Source of the DNA: Bernardetiaceae bacterium
GTDB taxonomy: Bacteria > Bacteroidota > Bacteroidia > Cytophagales > Thermoflexibacteraceae
Direction: 5' to 3'
NCBI GenBank assembly: GCA_025056255.1
Contig: JANWVT010000016.1
Span: 1-64,000 of the forward strand
Length of the DNA: 64,000 bases
The notes beneath the pieces were generated by a model. It was not told the origin of the DNA. It searched no databases and saw nothing but the letters and a program-made list of their open reading frames with translations. Both the position numbers and the translations under genes were made by a program. Position 1 is the first letter of the stretch; each line of letters starts with the position of its first letter. Shown one piece after another: positions 32,424-39,142 of this stretch.

Positions 32424-33644
32424 ATGTTGAAGGGTAAAAAAATTTTAATAGGCGTTTGCGGTAGCATTGCCGCCTATAAAACTGCTACCCTCATACGGCT
32501 TTTAGTTAAGCAGCAGGCAGAGGTACAAGTAATCATCACCGATGCTGCTGCTGACTTTATTTCTCCGCTTACCTTAGCTACTTTGTCTAAAAAACCCGTA
32601 CTCAAGCACTACACCGCCAACAGCGAAACAGGTGAGTGGAACAACCACGTAGCACTGGGGCTATGGGCAGACCTGATGCTTATTGCACCTGCTACTGCCC
32701 ACACACTCGCCAAAATGGCAAGTGGCTTGTGTGATAACTTGCTGATGGCTGCTTATCTTTCAGCGCGCTGTCCGGTGGCAGTAGCACCTGCTATGGACTT
32801 AGATATGTGGCATCACCCTGCTACCCAGCGGAATATCAGTCGCTTACAGGCAGATGGTTGTTATGTAATTCCCCCCGGCGAAGGCGAGCTTGCCAGTGGG
32901 CTCTCGGGCAAAGGCAGAATGGCTGAGCCTGAGCAAATTGCCCAATGGCTCAGTCTTTTTTTCACTGCTTCTAATTGGTTGAAAGGAAAGAATGTACTGC
33001 TCACCGCAGGACCTACCATTGAGCCCATAGACCCTGTTCGCTATATTACCAATCACTCAACCGGTAAAATGGGCTACGCCTTGGCACAAGCTTTTGCCGA
33101 TGCTGGGGCAAGTGTCCGTCTTATTTCCGGACCGGTATCTTTACAACTGCTACATCCATTGGTGCAGATTACGCCTGTGCATACCGCACGCCAAATGCAT
33201 CAAGCAGTAATGGAACGCTTATCGCAAGCCGATATCATTGTGCATTGTGCAGCCGTTGCTGACTATGCGCCTGCACAAATAGCTCCTCAGAAAATTAAAA
33301 AGCAAGAAGAAAGGCTTACGCTTGATTTGGTAAAAAATCCTGATATTGCAGCCGAAGCAGGACAGCGCTTGCAATGGCACCAAGTGCACGCAGGTTTTGC
33401 CTTAGAAACCGACCACGAAGAAGCAAATGCACACCAGAAAATGTTGCGCAAAAATTTTGACCTCATTGTGCTCAACTCGCTCAATCAAAAGGGGGCTGGT
33501 TTTGGGCACGATACCAACCGCGTAACGCTGCTTTTTAGAGACGGTAAGCGTGAAGATTTGCCGCTACTACCCAAAAATGAGGTTGCTCGCATTATTGTAC
33601 AACATCTTACCCAACTGCTTCAAACAAAATCGCATGTGGTTTAA
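32424..33644 (+). CDS. coaBC: Bifunctional coenzyme A biosynthesis protein CoaBC, 406 aa
   Basis: Two enzymes in one protein: phosphopantothenate-cysteine ligase (CoaB) and phosphopantothenoylcysteine decarboxylase (CoaC). The N-terminal flavoprotein half opens KKILIGVCGSIAAYKTATLIR, with the catalytic His in the NHVALG segment and PAMDLDMWHHPAT. The C-terminal half has VLLTAGPTIEPIDPVRYITN, STGKMGYALA and the DLVKNPDI segment. ATG at 32424 is preferred over the TTG at 32418. The gene overlaps the next by 11 bases. Confidence 0.95.
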   Translation: MLKGKKILIGVCGSIAAYKTATLIRLLVKQQAEVQVIITDAAADFISPLTLATLSKKPVLKHYTANSETGEWNNHVALGLWADLMLIAPATAHTLAKMASGLCDNLLMAAYLSARCPVAVAPAMDLDMWHHPATQRNISRLQADGCYVIPPGEGELASGLSGKGRMAEPEQIAQWLSLFFTASNWLKGKNVLLTAGPTIEPIDPVRYITNHSTGKMGYALAQAFADAGASVRLISGPVSLQLLHPLVQITPVHTARQMHQAVMERLSQADIIVHCAAVADYAPAQIAPQKIKKQEERLTLDLVKNPDIAAEAGQRLQWHQVHAGFALETDHEEANAHQKMLRKNFDLIVLNSLNQKGAGFGHDTNRVTLLFRDGKREDLPLLPKNEVARIIVQHLTQLLQTKSHVV

Positions 33645-34533
33645 AAGAATGCTAATCTTGCTGTTAGGCTGGTTTGCAGCCACCGCCTATGCACAAGAAC
33701 TCAATGCCAACGTTATCATTAACGATGCACAAGTACAAACACAAGAGCGCCAAGTGATTCAACAACTTCGCGATGCCATCGCCAATTTTATGAACACTAC
33801 GCGATGGACCAATGACAACTACAAACCCTACGAGCGAATTAAATGTAACTTCCTTATTACTCTCACCAGTGGCACAGACCTTGCCAACGGACGGTACACT
33901 GCCAACGTGCAAATTCAGTCTAGCAGACCTGTGTATGGAACAAATTATGAAACAGTGCTACTCACGTTCTTCGACCGCAATTTTAACTTCGAGTTTTTAC
34001 CCTCGCAGCCACTCATTTTTACTGAAAACGTATTTTCAACCAATCTAACAGCCATGCTTGCCTACTATGCGTATACTATTTTGGCGTTAGATGCCGATAG
34101 TTTTGCACCATTAGGCGGTACTCCTCATATTGAGCGCATTCTCAACATTTTGAATAATTCACAACAAGCCAACGCCTCTGGCTGGGGTAGCAACGATACG
34201 CGCAACCGGTATTTTATCTCTGAAAACCTGAACAATCCGCAACTAAGTGGTTATCGAGAGGCTCTTTATCTGTATCATCGCAAGGGGCTAGACTACTTTG
34301 CCGACAATCCTGAGCTAGGCAGGCAGAACATTTTAGAGGCAATCAAAAAAATAGCTCAAGTGAATCAAACGCGTCCCAATGCAGTACTCATCAACGCCTT
34401 TTTTGATTCTAAAGCAGAAGAACTGGTAAACATTTTCTTGCAAGCCGATACTCCTATGCGCCGAGAAGCTGCTGCTTTGCTTACACGCATAGACCCTACT
34501 AATGCTAACCGGTATCAAGTGCTAACAAGGTGA
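33634..34533 (+). CDS. DUF4835 family secreted protein, 299 aa
   Basis: Signal peptide MWFKRMLILLLGWFAATAYA, then a mature protein starting QELNANVIINDAQVQTQERQV, the typical DUF4835 opening. The rest alternates strands and helices; TRWTNDNYKPYERIKCNFLI and FFDRNFNFEFLPSQPLIF are recognisable family segments. Conserved in Bacteroidota next to coaBC and recN. I recall the family being linked with type IX secretion in some databases, but I do not assert that. The start overlaps the end of coaBC by 11 bases, and a second ATG lies at 33649. It converges on the Gly/Cys protein gene with only 3 bases between stops. Confidence 0.83.
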   Translation: MWFKRMLILLLGWFAATAYAQELNANVIINDAQVQTQERQVIQQLRDAIANFMNTTRWTNDNYKPYERIKCNFLITLTSGTDLANGRYTANVQIQSSRPVYGTNYETVLLTFFDRNFNFEFLPSQPLIFTENVFSTNLTAMLAYYAYTILALDADSFAPLGGTPHIERILNILNNSQQANASGWGSNDTRNRYFISENLNNPQLSGYREALYLYHRKGLDYFADNPELGRQNILEAIKKIAQVNQTRPNAVLINAFFDSKAEELVNIFLQADTPMRREAAALLTRIDPTNANRYQVLTR

Positions 34534-34536
34534 GGA

Positions 34537-35406
34537 CTAACTGCTGCAGCCACCCCCGCAGCCCGAGTCGCCACCCCCGCAGCCCGAGTCGCCACCCCCA
34601 CAACCCGAGTCGCCACCCCCACAACCCGAGTCGCCACCGCCATCTGAGCTATCGCCACCGCCATCGCTGTCACTGCCAAATCCGTCTTCAAAAGAGTCGT
34701 CAAAGCTCCAATCCTCAGCAATGAAGAGGAATTCCTCTGCACTATCATCGTCCGCCGATGCAGCATGTTCGCGCGCAAAAAGACGGCTCAATTCTTCATC
34801 CACTAACAGTAGCAAGTTGTGGTCAATGGCATTAGAGAGAAACAAATTGCCATTCATCATGTGCAGCAAGCGTCTGACTGTTGCCCGGTCGGAGTGATAC
34901 ACTTGGGGCAACAAATTAGTAAGTTCGTTCAGTTCGGTTTCTACATGAGTGCGCTTCAAAGCTCCCTCTGCTGTGTATTTCACTTTATCGGTGAGACTTA
35001 TCCAAAATCCACGCTCAAAGGATGTGAGCAGTTGTGGGGTTTTCATGATTTTTTGGCGCAAATAAGTAGTGCTAATAGCATATCGGCGCCCTAAGCGAAT
35101 CAGATTGATAAAAGAAATTTCTCGGTTCGGTTCGCGAGCAAAGTGCTTTGTGTAGATAGCTTCATGTGCCAGCGGACGATACTCGGCATATTTTGCTCCG
35201 CGGTGGAGGTACATGTGGACAACGGGTTGGTTGCTCGATTTGATGAAAGGCGTAGTTCTGATAGCAAGTACTTTTTTGAGCAACAAGTCCATCAAAGTTA
35301 GTTTAAGCAATTGCTTGAAATTGAGCATTTTGCCATGCAGCAGCACAAGCGCCTCTGCTGGCGTGAGCAGAGGTAGTATTTGAAAGTTTAGCGGCGAGGT
35401 TGCCAT
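34537..35406 (-). CDS. Protein with Gly/Cys heptad-repeat tail, TIGR04222-like, 289 aa
   Basis: N-terminal two thirds are soluble and mixed helical, beginning LPLLTPAEALVLLHGKMLNF and continuing with KVLAIRTTPFI; this resembles the domain of TIGR04222 proteins that precedes a low-complexity tail. An acidic Asp/Ser/Phe segment (EDWSFDDSFEDGF) leads into a tail of four GGGDSGC units plus degenerate copies, ending GGGCSS. Six cysteines in the last 30 residues could bind metal. No membrane helix is obvious. ATG at 35406 is used, overlapping the upstream GRDP-like gene by 19 bases. Role unknown. Confidence 0.75.
   Translation of the reverse strand: MATSPLNFQILPLLTPAEALVLLHGKMLNFKQLLKLTLMDLLLKKVLAIRTTPFIKSSNQPVVHMYLHRGAKYAEYRPLAHEAIYTKHFAREPNREISFINLIRLGRRYAISTTYLRQKIMKTPQLLTSFERGFWISLTDKVKYTAEGALKRTHVETELNELTNLLPQVYHSDRATVRRLLHMMNGNLFLSNAIDHNLLLLVDEELSRLFAREHAASADDDSAEEFLFIAEDWSFDDSFEDGFGSDSDGGGDSSDGGGDSGCGGGDSGCGGGDSGCGGGDSGCGGGCSS
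34550..34675 (-). repeat. 21-bp tandem repeat encoding the Gly/Cys tail
   Basis: Plus-strand unit CCACCCCCGCAGCCCGAGTCG (34550-34570) is repeated exactly at 34571-34591, with two base changes at 34592-34612 and 34613-34633, and in degenerate form at 34634-34654 and 34655-34675. The 21-bp period keeps the reading frame and encodes a seven-residue unit. Such tracts vary easily in copy number. Confidence 0.95.
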
Positions 35407-35927
35407 AATTGCTCTAATGCGTTTTGAATAAGCAATAACCAAGTGGGTTTAGGGATTATCCAGTAAGTATCGGTGTTAACTCTGCGAAAGTTAACAAAAC
35501 GAAAACAAATTTTGGCAGTAGGCCAAAGATCTTCGGGGGGCAAGCAGTCAAAAACTGATACGTAACTTTTTAATGTATAGTTATACCAATCATTAAACTT
35601 GCTACGTTCTGCAATGCCGCCGCGCGTAGGTGCGTGATGCAGGGGTTTGCCAAGCACTTTGCCGCAAAGCTCTTCCCAGTAGCTATGGGTATAGAGCAAA
35701 TGCAGGTGCCAAACCTGATCTACTGGGTCAGAGGGGGTTACTGGGTGGGGCAAGGTAGCTGCCAGTAGCAAAAATTTCTTGTATTCGTCTATGGCACGCA
35801 AGGTAAAATCTAAATCCCAACCGTTTTCACGAGCCAGCCTCGCTGAAAAAGGAAGTGTTGCCTTAGGGTCGTCTAATTCAAAATATCGAAGTTGTTGCCA
35901 TAGCGCTGCCTGTTGGGAGGTCATCAT
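35388..35927 (-). CDS. GRDP-like (glycine-rich domain-containing type) protein, 179 aa
   Basis: Shows the conserved core of GRDP-like proteins and of the N-terminal part of TIGR04222 proteins: SARLARENGWDLDF, AIDEYKKFLLLAATLPHPVTPSDPVDQVWHLHLLYTHSYW, then LHHAPTRGG. Histidines in VWHLHL and LHH are suggestive of a metal or active site, but no function is established. No signal peptide or membrane helix. The start ATG overlaps the transporter stop (ATGA), and its end overlaps the Gly/Cys protein gene, so the three are tightly coupled. In many relatives the two soluble parts belong to one polypeptide. Confidence 0.8.
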   Translation of the reverse strand: MMTSQQAALWQQLRYFELDDPKATLPFSARLARENGWDLDFTLRAIDEYKKFLLLAATLPHPVTPSDPVDQVWHLHLLYTHSYWEELCGKVLGKPLHHAPTRGGIAERSKFNDWYNYTLKSYVSVFDCLPPEDLWPTAKICFRFVNFRRVNTDTYWIIPKPTWLLLIQNALEQLWQPRR

Positions 35928-37057
35928 TGTCGGGTAAGTGTTTGGAAGGGAAGCGGGAGGTAATATGCCAATGTACCTACAACTAATGCAGCTGCAAATC
36001 CATAAGGAAGAGCAAAAGCCATGATACCGGTTAGCAGCGCAATAAAAAAAGAGCGTTTTTGCTCGGCTAAGTCGCCTATTAGAAAACTTAGGCTCAATCC
36101 TTCAAAAAACAAGATGACGCCCAGAATAGGGAGTGGGAAAACGTGTATCAACTGCATAAATCCTTTGCTAAAAAATAGCCCCAACAAGAGATAAAAAAGT
36201 CCATAAATGAACACAGAGCCTCCGCTGCGTCCACCAAAAGTGTAGTGTCCCATCATGCCACCCGCTCCGTGACAACAAGGAATGCCCCCCAGAAAAGGAG
36301 CTACTAAATTCATGAGCGAGTAGGTAATGCCAATTTTTTGTACGGTAATATCCTTGCGTGTTGGAAAGAGGTCGTTGCTGAGTTGTTTAGTGGCAATAAT
36401 AGAGTTGCTTAATGATAAAGGAATCTGGGGTATTGCCAATAATACAAATCCTTTTGCAATATCGTCCAGACTGGGAGTGAATAGCGTAGGTAGTTGCAAG
36501 TCAAAACTCTCAGCAAACCTGAGGGGCGAAATCTTAAACATAAATGCATACACCAGCCCCAGTGCTATTACTACCAGAGCAGCAGGATATTTTCGGCTAT
36601 CGGACAGAACAAGCACGACCACAAAAGCCACACCTGCCAGTACATAGCCTTGCACTTGTTCAGCAGCTAGGTACTCTTTGCTTGCCAGCAAGCAAAGGCT
36701 TATGCCGAGCCCTAGTTGTAACCCTCTGACAACAGCTTGGGGAATCAGCCGTGTTAAACGCTCTAAAATACCGCTCAACGACAAGACAAGCATTACCACC
36801 CCAATAGCAATGCCAGCTCCAAGCAAAATGTTACCGGCAATTTTTTGGGCAATGACCAACGATGTCATTGCTTTAAGTGGTTGTACAGGCATGGGCATGC
36901 GGTAAGTGAATGCTGTGAGCACTTGCAGCAGTCCGAAAACAGTCAGTACGTTGGCGCTATCCAATTCTGCAGCCATGACAACCGCCACCAGCAGCGGGAG
37001 GTCTGTACCAATATCGCCAAATGCACCTGCCAGTTCTCGTCGGTTGAGCGTCAACAT
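35924..37057 (-). CDS. Putative molybdate/sulfate transporter, MOT1-like, 377 aa
   Basis: Inner-membrane anion transporter of the MOT1 branch related to the SulP superfamily. About ten to eleven membrane helices. Both signature regions are present: PMPVQPLKAM near residue 55 and IPCCHGAGGMMGHYTFGGRSG near residue 265. The AGAFGDIGTDLPLLVAV N-terminal helix is also typical. Unlike SulP transporters it has no C-terminal STAS domain. I use ATG at 37057; the frame is open to a TTG at 37081. Molybdate is the favoured substrate, sulfate possible. Confidence 0.9.
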   Translation of the reverse strand: MLTLNRRELAGAFGDIGTDLPLLVAVVMAAELDSANVLTVFGLLQVLTAFTYRMPMPVQPLKAMTSLVIAQKIAGNILLGAGIAIGVVMLVLSLSGILERLTRLIPQAVVRGLQLGLGISLCLLASKEYLAAEQVQGYVLAGVAFVVVLVLSDSRKYPAALVVIALGLVYAFMFKISPLRFAESFDLQLPTLFTPSLDDIAKGFVLLAIPQIPLSLSNSIIATKQLSNDLFPTRKDITVQKIGITYSLMNLVAPFLGGIPCCHGAGGMMGHYTFGGRSGGSVFIYGLFYLLLGLFFSKGFMQLIHVFPLPILGVILFFEGLSLSFLIGDLAEQKRSFFIALLTGIMAFALPYGFAAALVVGTLAYYLPLPFQTLTRQ

Positions 37058-37204
37058 CTTTCCAACGATTCGAGTTTGCAAGTAAGCTATTCAATGGCGA
37101 ACAGTTTTACAAGAGCCGGAGTACTTTCTTCTTTCAAATGGCTTCATTTTATGCTAACATAGCATCACCACTCTACCTGTGTGGTAGCAGCATGGTCAGT
37201 AAGG

Positions 37205-37627
37205 CTATTTGGTGGTTACTAACTGGTTGGTGTAGAGCCACTGAAGAGCAGACTCTTCTTGTTCAAAAATCTGACTTTCCAATACCACATTGCTCACCGG
37301 TGATTTTCCTTTAATTTGCTCTATGGCAATTTTAGCAAAGATGGATACAGGGGCAAGGATGGCTATTTTTTGTATGCCAACTTCAACAGCACGAGGTAGC
37401 CAGTAAGAAATAATCCACTCTTGCATTTCCATCCCTACTGCTTGCGCATGGCGAAGGTCTTGCAACATCAGTGAGCACTTGCTTTTTTGCAGGTGGGTGA
37501 GTACTTGTTCCAATAATGACTTCATTTCTTGTGGAGGGGCAAAACCTTTCCACGCGTAGTAAAAAACTCTTCCCTCTTCCATCCATCCGGCGAGGAAATA
37601 CCTGTTATCAATAATTACTTGTAGCAT
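37205..37627 (-). CDS. SpoIIAA-like/STAS-related protein, 140 aa
   Basis: Matches the pattern of SpoIIAA-like (STAS/SEC14-type) small cytoplasmic proteins common in Bacteroidota: an N-terminal strand and GRVFYYAWKGFAPPQEM, a helix KSLLEQVLTHLQKSKCSLMLQDL, then WIISYWLPRAVEVGIQKIAIL and a C-terminal FEQEESALQWLYTN helix. There is no signal peptide. The transporter gene lies 147 bases downstream on the same strand, so the two could be co-transcribed. No conserved phosphorylatable D-S motif is seen. Function unknown. Confidence 0.7.
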   Translation of the reverse strand: MLQVIIDNRYFLAGWMEEGRVFYYAWKGFAPPQEMKSLLEQVLTHLQKSKCSLMLQDLRHAQAVGMEMQEWIISYWLPRAVEVGIQKIAILAPVSIFAKIAIEQIKGKSPVSNVVLESQIFEQEESALQWLYTNQLVTTK

Positions 37628-38104: not shown

Positions 38105-39142
38105 TCAGCTGTTTGCAAGTACCATTTCTTTCAAAGTTTGTACCCAGCGCGGATGATTGTTGAGACTTTCTACCATTTGCCAATGCGTACCTCCTTTTTG
38201 CTCGAACAGTTCTTTGTACTCCTCGCCAATTTCTATGGTGGTTTCTAAGCAGTCTGCCACAAAAGAAGGAGAAAATGCTAAAATGCTTTTTTTTCCTTCG
38301 GCTACCAACCGTTCAATGGTTTCATCGGTGTAGGGACGAATCCAAGGGTCGGTACCCAGACGAGATTGAAAACAAGTAGTGTACTGCTCGGGTCTGAGTC
38401 CTAATTCTTTTGCCAGTAGGCGAGAGGTTTCAAAGCACTGCGCACGGTAGCACAAGCGATTGCCTTGGTGATAGGTATGGCAACAGGTAGCATCTACTAT
38501 GCAACGCTTGTTAGGGTCAGCTTTGCGCAATTGGCGCTCTGGCAGCCCGTGATAGGAAAAAATGAAATGGTCAAACTGGTGTTGCGCCATGTATTTGCGT
38601 CCCAGCTCGGCATAAACGGAAATCATTGTAGGATTGTTGGCATACGTGTCCAATAGGATGAGGTGAGGAATTTGCTCCCATTGGCGCAAGCAACGCATCA
38701 CCTCTTCGTGTACCGAGCCAGTTGTGGCAGAGGCATATTGTGGAAAAAGAGGTAGTACAATTAGTTTGCGAATAGGTGTAGTACGCAACTTTTCCAATTC
38801 AGCAGCAATGCTCGGGTTTTGATAGCGCATAGCCAAACGAACCGTATACCCCTCGCCAAGTTCTTGTTGTAACATGGCTTGCACCTCTTGTCCGTAGAAC
38901 AATAGCGGAGAACCGCGCTCAGTCCACAATTGCCGGTATACTCTTGCCGATTTAGGTGCGCGAAAGGGAGCAATAATGAGATTGACTAACAAAAAACGCC
39001 CTATGGCACCAATATCTACTACTCGGCGGTCGGAGAGAAATTCTCGCAAGTATTTGCGCACATCGGCAGGAGCAGGCGAGTCGGGCGTGCCTAAATTGAC
39101 CAATAGCACAGCAGTATGCGGATTAGTGAGCATATTCTTCAT
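38105..39142 (-). CDS. hemH: Ferrochelatase, 345 aa
   Basis: Inserts ferrous iron into protoporphyrin IX, the last step of heme synthesis. Motifs in order: VLLVNLGTPDSPAPADVRKYL, RFFL-type RRVVDIGAIGRFLLV, YQLWTERGSPLLFY-like segment (YRQLWTERGSPLLFYG), MRYQNPSI, FSYHGLPERQLRKADP with the catalytic His, TCFQSRLGTDPWIRPYT and FSPSFVADCLETTIEIGEEY with the catalytic Glu. ATG at 39142; a second ATG at 39133 is possible. Heme supply suits the many c-type and a-type heme proteins encoded in the window. Confidence 0.96.
   Translation of the reverse strand: MKNMLTNPHTAVLLVNLGTPDSPAPADVRKYLREFLSDRRVVDIGAIGRFLLVNLIIAPFRAPKSARVYRQLWTERGSPLLFYGQEVQAMLQQELGEGYTVRLAMRYQNPSIAAELEKLRTTPIRKLIVLPLFPQYASATTGSVHEEVMRCLRQWEQIPHLILLDTYANNPTMISVYAELGRKYMAQHQFDHFIFSYHGLPERQLRKADPNKRCIVDATCCHTYHQGNRLCYRAQCFETSRLLAKELGLRPEQYTTCFQSRLGTDPWIRPYTDETIERLVAEGKKSILAFSPSFVADCLETTIEIGEEYKELFEQKGGTHWQMVESLNNHPRWVQTLKEMVLANS

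Follow-up and report, generated by a model that had tools for sequence, protein, structure and literature searches.

The GRDP domain (DUF1399, PF07173) is named after plant proteins that were studied in connection with growth and stress, and its function is described as unknown. In plants it can be accompanied by a tail: in AtGRDP2, DUF1399 stands at the N-terminus, and the C-terminus is a glycine-rich domain dotted with cysteines, of consensus [CG]GGGCGG[GC] (PMC4299439). The architecture is thus already known in kind. Bacteria have described tails of comparable make-up in the TIGR04222 proteins, subsets of which are proposed substrates of MNIO (PMC12452194).

We analysed 64,000 nt of the genome of a Bernardetiaceae bacterium (Bacteroidota, order Cytophagales; assembly GCA_025056255.1, contig JANWVT010000016.1, positions 1 to 64,000 of the forward strand), hereafter the window, in which the two pieces are encoded by two minus-strand genes. 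The first gives a GRDP-like protein of 179 aa (35388-35927), and the second, with its ATG at 35406, a partner of 289 aa (34537-35406) composed of an N-terminal domain (LTPAEALVLLHG...) and a C-terminal Gly/Ser/Asp/Cys tail. Their frames overlap by 19 nt (35388-35406), the same 19 nt being found in both congeners that have the pair (L089, L090). An earlier note on this DNA had put these genes in one cluster with two neighbours; that the GRDP-like and Gly/Cys genes belong together is borne out by their adjacency in the congeners and by the link of domain and tail across the order. We propose that they are a domain-tail unit whose GRDP domain would bind, metallate or modify the tail. That domain and tail are linked is well supported, while on the reading as a whole, chemistry included, our judgement is evenly balanced.

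Domain and tail within the order and beyond

A GRDP profile built from 11 sequences without their tails (A1) gave matches at 66 places, spread over 57 of the order's 291 genomes. We read 61 of these places, mostly in stretches of 12 kb, leaving out the places in G049, G125 and G087, one each of G107 and G252, and also a 66-aa fragment of G252. They hold 60 open reading frames (ORFs) in 57 loci, which make 59 genes once two fragments of one broken gene (L075) are merged and counted as split. A tail was called when the last 40 residues contained at least two Cys and at least 14 Gly and Ser together. By this rule 51 of the 59 GRDP genes, which are related to one another, have a tail, fused in 39 cases and carried by the next downstream gene in 12. 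Four genes checked by hand bring the number to 55: L071 and the partner in L090 have one Cys each, L076 has its tail in another frame, and the L081 gene runs off its contig, its last 41 residues recurring, at the end of a second contig from this genome, in an ORF (L203) that continues into a Gly/Cys tail. Among the other genes at these loci, defined as those that match the profile of neither GRDP nor the partner, one in 537 has such a tail, and it follows the GRDP gene of L096; 19 of the 537 come from two loci without GRDP. Our first rule (at least three Cys and at least six Gly in the last 30 residues) gave 35 fused tails, 10 downstream tails and 15 ORFs without a tail among the 60 ORFs, and none among the 537 other genes. 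The linkage of GRDP domain and tail thus far exceeds that of other genes at the same loci and is well supported. The genome G044, without a GRDP match, has two proteins with the partner domain (L102, 5265-6074; L103, 5058-5789) whose ends are rich in Gly, Ser and Asp and have no Cys in the last 40 residues; these are two cases, in the direction expected under a domain-tail unit.

Some loci depart from the common pattern in the nature of the ending. At L096 (5487-7096) a diverged GRDP gene precedes a gene with an SCSSCSSCSSC-like tail, which matches a thiopeptide-precursor model weakly (E 0.14). L095, L097 and L104 make up a diverged GRDP group, with the ending CWHDC...RCWHAC in place of the Gly/Cys tail.

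The association extends beyond Bacteroidota. Among 240 genomes of Verrucomicrobiota, 12 were matched, at 13 places (one of them, L006, is itself among the profile sequences): nine are fused, three are split and one (L148) is tail-less, and all three split partners pass the cut-off of TIGR04222, with 138, 68 and 132 bits. In Cyanobacteria, 23 of 244 genomes were matched at 25 places, and all 15 places scoring at least 80 bits have a tail, ten by the rule (nine fused, one downstream) and five by hand. Two of the latter end in CSGCACSM or GGCGC; in the other three the GRDP gene lies directly downstream of a gene identified by Pfam as a protein kinase, which ends in CGGGC in two cases and in a Gly run with one Cys in the third. 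Seven plasmid records were matched, of which five were read: a Planktothrix copy and two Rhizobium copies have a tail by the rule, the Gloeothece copy ends in GGCGCGC, and the Deinococcus copy has a Gly-rich stretch with one Cys and no tail by the rule. The phage collection searched with GRDP gave no match. A quick tree of 88 domains implies six changes among fused, split and kinase-linked forms, although its starred branches alone require only two where the split label is concerned, and long branches drew a warning from the program; it leaves out the broken cyanobacterial genes L125 and L126 and the cyanobacterial and verrucomicrobial matches below 80 bits, and some of its states were set by hand. 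In three phyla, then, the GRDP domain comes with a tail, on the same chain or on an adjacent gene, and there have been switches from one form to another.

In five cyanobacterial loci (L007-L009, L122, L136) kinase genes directly upstream of the GRDP gene end in CGGGC, the tail being here on a third, unrelated kind of carrier; the kinase gene of L007 lies only partly within the locus as read.

The two proteins and the tail

The GRDP-like protein of the window matches PF07173 with 17.8 bits (E 0.0058, profile positions 79-142 of 143), and because this is below the cut-off of 22.7 bits we call it GRDP-like; on sequence grounds it is a diverged GRDP relative. Matches to PF07173 at E up to 0.01 are found in 20 of 64 aligned GRDP proteins, the best at 3e-5. 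Across this alignment (A5, in which L075, L076 and L081 were left out) Asp70, Trp73, His74, Tyr83, His98 and Phe126 are invariant in all 64 proteins, of which 63 retain His76 and 61 retain Cys88. The invariant residues suggest a metal or catalytic site. The AlphaFold2 model of the protein is all-helical (pLDDT 79.9); VIA-align gave Z up to 3.9 against chains of transcription-initiation and cyclin complexes, from which neither kinship nor its absence follows, and a PDB sequence search with the proteins of the pair returned no match. A copy in Rhizobium gallicum M101 (L209, 4166-4741) has a shortened frame with Val at the otherwise invariant Asp, and is probably a decayed gene.

The sole Pfam match of the partner is to the low-complexity GRP model, with a score under the cut-off, and NCBIfam gives nothing at E up to 1. 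Relatives adjoining GRDP genes in the order are 13-63% identical (20-61% for the trimmed domain). The AlphaFold2 model shows helices and a beta hairpin (pLDDT 78.1), a predicted fold that reads as winged-helix-like. DUF2207_C (PF20990) is weakly matched by three of 15 partner-type proteins (best E 2.3e-6) and by six of the 64 GRDP proteins, the window protein giving no match. A crude hydropathy scan finds one or more hydrophobic segments in 59 of 60 fused proteins, and none in nine of 15 partners, including that of the window. The window pair appears to be a soluble, cytosolic version of the split form. Where the pair is split, the frames of domain and partner overlap by 4-43 nt in 11 of the 13 cases measured, the other two being 1 and 3 nt apart; these values depend on start codons picked by hand.

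Over 75 tails we count 40.6% Gly, 22.9% Ser and 12.5% Cys; the commonest Cys spacings are C-x2-C and C-x3-C, flanked by Gly or Ser on either side, and Asp is the last residue of 38 tails. In the window, the GDSGCGG repeats of the tail are encoded by a minus-strand 21-bp tandem repeat at 34549-34642 (Tandem Repeats Finder, 4.5 copies, 95% matches). The earlier suggestion that the tail is suited to metal binding agrees with these features, which fit thiol or metal chemistry.

TIGR04222 proteins and modification enzymes

TIGR04222 provides a bridge between GRDP and tails already described. Its profile matches 22 of the 64 GRDP proteins at E up to 0.01 (best 8.1e-33), and the fusions of L006 and L058 score 114 and 107 bits. 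In the order it matches 26 of 291 genomes, 14 of them above the cut-off. Three of these 14 (G068, G168, G251) are GRDP fusions, and a weaker match, in G132, is the remainder of the GRDP gene L081. Of the other 11, eight combine a tail by the rule with the absence of a GRDP match from the stretch that was read (G143, G069, G004, G074, G177, G094, G070, G169), and three have no tail (G056, G107, G099). The eight genomes with free-standing TIGR04222 tails have an MNIO match in seven cases (partial in G169, adjacent in G070), against 31 of the 283 other genomes. GRDP genomes show no tie of this strength: MNIO is matched in 13 of the 57, and a full-length, high-scoring MNIO occurs in three of them. 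YcaO is matched in four of 57 GRDP genomes vs 15 of 234 others. Since free TIGR04222 tails track MNIO and GRDP genomes do not do so comparably, GRDP and MNIO may be alternative partners of such tails. At L200 (3446-5860), a free TIGR04222-type tail protein adjoins an MNIO gene and a gene for a 178-aa protein, likely an MNIO cluster in the same order.

In the genome of the window, rated 100% complete, and in three congeners, neither MNIO (PF05114) nor YcaO (PF02624) was matched, and we rejected modification of the tail by either enzyme from within the window genome because neither was matched there. The Gly/Cys protein itself has no match to TIGR04222 (cut-off 43 bits) at E up to 1. It shares with this family the C-terminal Gly/Ser-Cys tail and has no membrane segment by the crude hydropathy scan. 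When the N-terminal domain of the partners was compared with TIGR04222 profile to profile, only the low-complexity tails aligned, and scans of the soluble partners gave nothing above the cut-off. Because it lacks both the profile match and the membrane segment, we did not file the protein as TIGR04222; it sits in the same slot beside GRDP.

Neighbouring genes, explanations and related systems

The earlier note described four genes in a row on the minus strand, and the ORF coordinates agree with it. A SpoIIAA/STAS-like gene (37205-37627; PF11964 22.3 bits, below the Pfam cut-off of 25) lies 147 nt before the ATG, at 37057, of a MOT1-type transporter gene (35924-37057). The latter overlaps the GRDP-like gene by ATGA, and the 19-nt overlap with the Gly/Cys gene follows. 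A ferrochelatase gene (38105-39142) flanks the cluster upstream, and a convergent gene for PorD of the type IX secretion system (33550-34533) ends on its 3' side. The identity of MOT1 is certain (PF16983, 183.9 bits, above the cut-off), and it lacks a STAS domain as noted earlier, its sole Pfam matches at E up to 1 being PF16983 and Xan_ur_permease.

The row does not recur in the genomes compared. G002 and G003, the two congeners that have the pair, carry it downstream of uvrC (recognised by its Pfam domains; L089, L001), the GRDP-like and Gly/Cys genes again being neighbours that overlap by 19 nt, and in both MOT1 is on a different contig from the pair; in the third congener, G001, neither protein of the pair was matched. 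The domain of the Gly/Cys protein is present in four of 59 relatives, the genome of the window included. Ohtaekwangia koreensis also has the GRDP-Gly/Cys pair (L003), in a 12.5-kb locus with no MOT1 and no STAS gene of the window type. A tblastn search of the collected loci, many of them with about 1.5 kb per side, at E up to 1e-3, matched the window-type STAS gene only in the genome of the window, and MOT1 only there and in the loci that had been collected through the MOT1 search itself. Among clusters of the genes that lie up to 4.5 kb from a GRDP gene, the largest comprised 10 long proteins in nine loci and the rest reached at most five loci, so no general third partner of GRDP genes emerges. 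MOT1 and the STAS-like gene are accordingly judged to be neighbours outside the conserved unit: the four genes are not one conserved unit, and the pair is independent of the other two. In G002, a 135-aa ORF (L152, 696-1103) adjoins MOT1 and is 21% identical to the window STAS-like protein over 86 residues (pairwise E 9e-8); it has no match in Pfam or NCBIfam. Because this weakly STAS-like ORF adjoins MOT1, a MOT1/STAS-like pairing of its own, apart from the GRDP unit, is possible.

In the explanation that we prefer, the last two genes of the row would encode a domain-tail unit in split form. One half, the GRDP-like protein, would be a small helical domain in which an Asp/His/Tyr/Cys/His set is conserved, and the other half, the partner, would be a carrier that works through its flexible C-terminal Gly/Ser/Cys tail. 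Most relatives have both pieces in one protein, usually with predicted hydrophobic segments between them, and in the window they would be separate, apparently cytosolic, and produced together through the overlapping frames. The GRDP domain may contact the tail directly, its conserved residues may form a metal or catalytic site, and the thiols of the C-x2-C and C-x3-C motifs may bind metal or be modified with its help; GRDP would then have for these tails the role proposed for MNIO on part of the TIGR04222 tails. A bolder form of the explanation, which we rate as unlikely, is that GRDP is an unrecognised metal-dependent enzyme or metal-loading domain acting on Gly/Ser-Cys tails, in cis or in trans, and replacing MNIO. 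If so, the same domain-tail chemistry might run from bacteria to plant GRDPs.

A number of observations weigh against a domain-tail unit of this kind. TIGR04222-type tails occur without GRDP, so the tail does not need it, and conversely four of the 59 GRDP genes remain without the tail: L098 lacks any tail, and the ending of L095, L097 and L104 is CWHDC...CWHAC. The same holds for the weak verrucomicrobial match L148 (30.7 bits), for eight of the ten cyanobacterial matches below 60 bits (one of the others has a tail and one has no readable ORF), and, in the available part of PMC4299439, for two of the four Arabidopsis DUF1399 proteins, which are without the glycine-rich part. The rule for calling a tail was relaxed once, when initial results had been seen. 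The number of Cys varies strongly even among congeners, with five in the window tail and one in G003. In Foldseek searches neither protein model had a PDB match at E 0.001 (best E 1.7 for the GRDP-like protein, 0.69 for the partner). Finally, MNIO is matched in 13 of 57 GRDP genomes vs 25 of 234 others (p 0.026, ignoring kinship), and at L099 (5681-8599, in G252) an MNIO gene (PF05114, 124 bits) lies about 60 bp beyond a fused GRDP-tail gene, on the other strand.

Other explanations were weighed too. The tail could be a passive metal or thiol buffer, like a metallothionein, with GRDP as a scaffold without chemistry of its own. We regard this as unlikely, though a serious contender: spaced Cys of variable number in a flexible Gly/Ser background are what it would need, but it leaves unexplained the invariant Asp/His/Tyr/His set of GRDP and leaves open why this domain in particular is linked to the tails. 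Less likely still is that the tail is a ribosomally made peptide modified by MNIO or YcaO in trans, for which GRDP would serve only as a passive anchor or a leader-like domain. The tails resemble azole precursors, a few relatives match thiopeptide-precursor and YxzE bacteriocin models weakly, the proposal for TIGR04222 subsets introduced above goes in the same direction, and so does the presence of MNIO in 13 GRDP genomes. Yet MNIO is unmatched in 44 of the 57 GRDP genomes and YcaO in 53, and the genome of the window and its three congeners have neither. A structural, sorting or assembly role, with GRDP and tail acting as a membrane-associated scaffold or condensate and neither metal nor modification involved, seems improbable to us; the predicted hydrophobic segments of nearly all fused forms (59 of 60, by the crude scan), the low complexity of the tails and the RNA-binding-like motif described for plant GRDPs (PMC4299439, available part) would suit it, but not the regularity with which the cysteines are spaced as C-x2-C and C-x3-C and flanked on either side by Gly or Ser.

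The idea of the earlier note, that the row is a metal or oxyanion (molybdate) uptake unit made of a STAS-like protein, MOT1, GRDP and a Cys-rich metal receiver, we consider very improbable. The common strand, the ATGA overlap of MOT1 and GRDP, the firm identification of MOT1 and the weak STAS-like ORF beside MOT1 in G002 speak for it. Against it, pair and MOT1 are on separate contigs in both congeners having them, the other GRDP loci searched by tblastn have neither MOT1 nor a window-type STAS gene, and no such neighbour recurs. The note itself had named the absence of the four genes as neighbours in other genomes as grounds for refuting the idea, and in the genomes and loci searched they are not neighbours elsewhere. 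The uptake unit with MOT1 and a STAS-like receiver is therefore not upheld.

The domain-tail unit proposed here seems new in several respects. Among the best literature matches on TIGR04222/DUF692, DUF1399/GRDP and DUF2207/YciQ, no title or abstract opening links a bacterial GRDP to a Gly/Cys tail, and the main text of PMC12452194, in its available part, makes no mention of GRDP, glycine-rich, PF07173 or Bacteroid. The split bacterial unit, the TIGR04222 bridge and the spread of the association are likewise in none of the literature matches listed, nor in the available parts of PMC12452194 and PMC4299439. The bacterial pair offers both halves as separate small proteins, one with the tail, and therefore binding, metal content and tail modification are directly testable.

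Among known systems, bufferins, methanobactins and other peptides made by MNIO are Cys-rich and metal-binding (PMC12452194), as the tail may be, and unlike them the window pair is in a genome without an MNIO match. The DUF2207 C-terminal domain (PF20990) is matched weakly by some partners and GRDP proteins, and the window protein does not match it. Closer are the TIGR04222 (near_uncomplex) membrane proteins, in part proposed MNIO substrates (PMC12452194), which, like the Gly/Cys partner, have a Ser/Gly-rich C-terminal tail with spaced Cys. They occupy the slot of the partner beside GRDP in Verrucomicrobiota or are fused to GRDP, as in L006 and L058; unlike them, the window protein has neither a match to the profile nor a predicted membrane segment, and its genome has no MNIO match. 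The plant GRDPs (DUF1399/PF07173; AtGRDP1 and AtGRDP2) differ from the window pair in that AtGRDP2 is one 787-aa chain bearing a putative RNP motif, whereas the window has two genes and a GRDP-like protein below the PF07173 cut-off. As in the bacterial proteins, however, an N-terminal GRDP domain is combined in them with a Gly-rich, Cys-containing C-terminal segment whose consensus resembles the bacterial tails (PMC4299439, available part).

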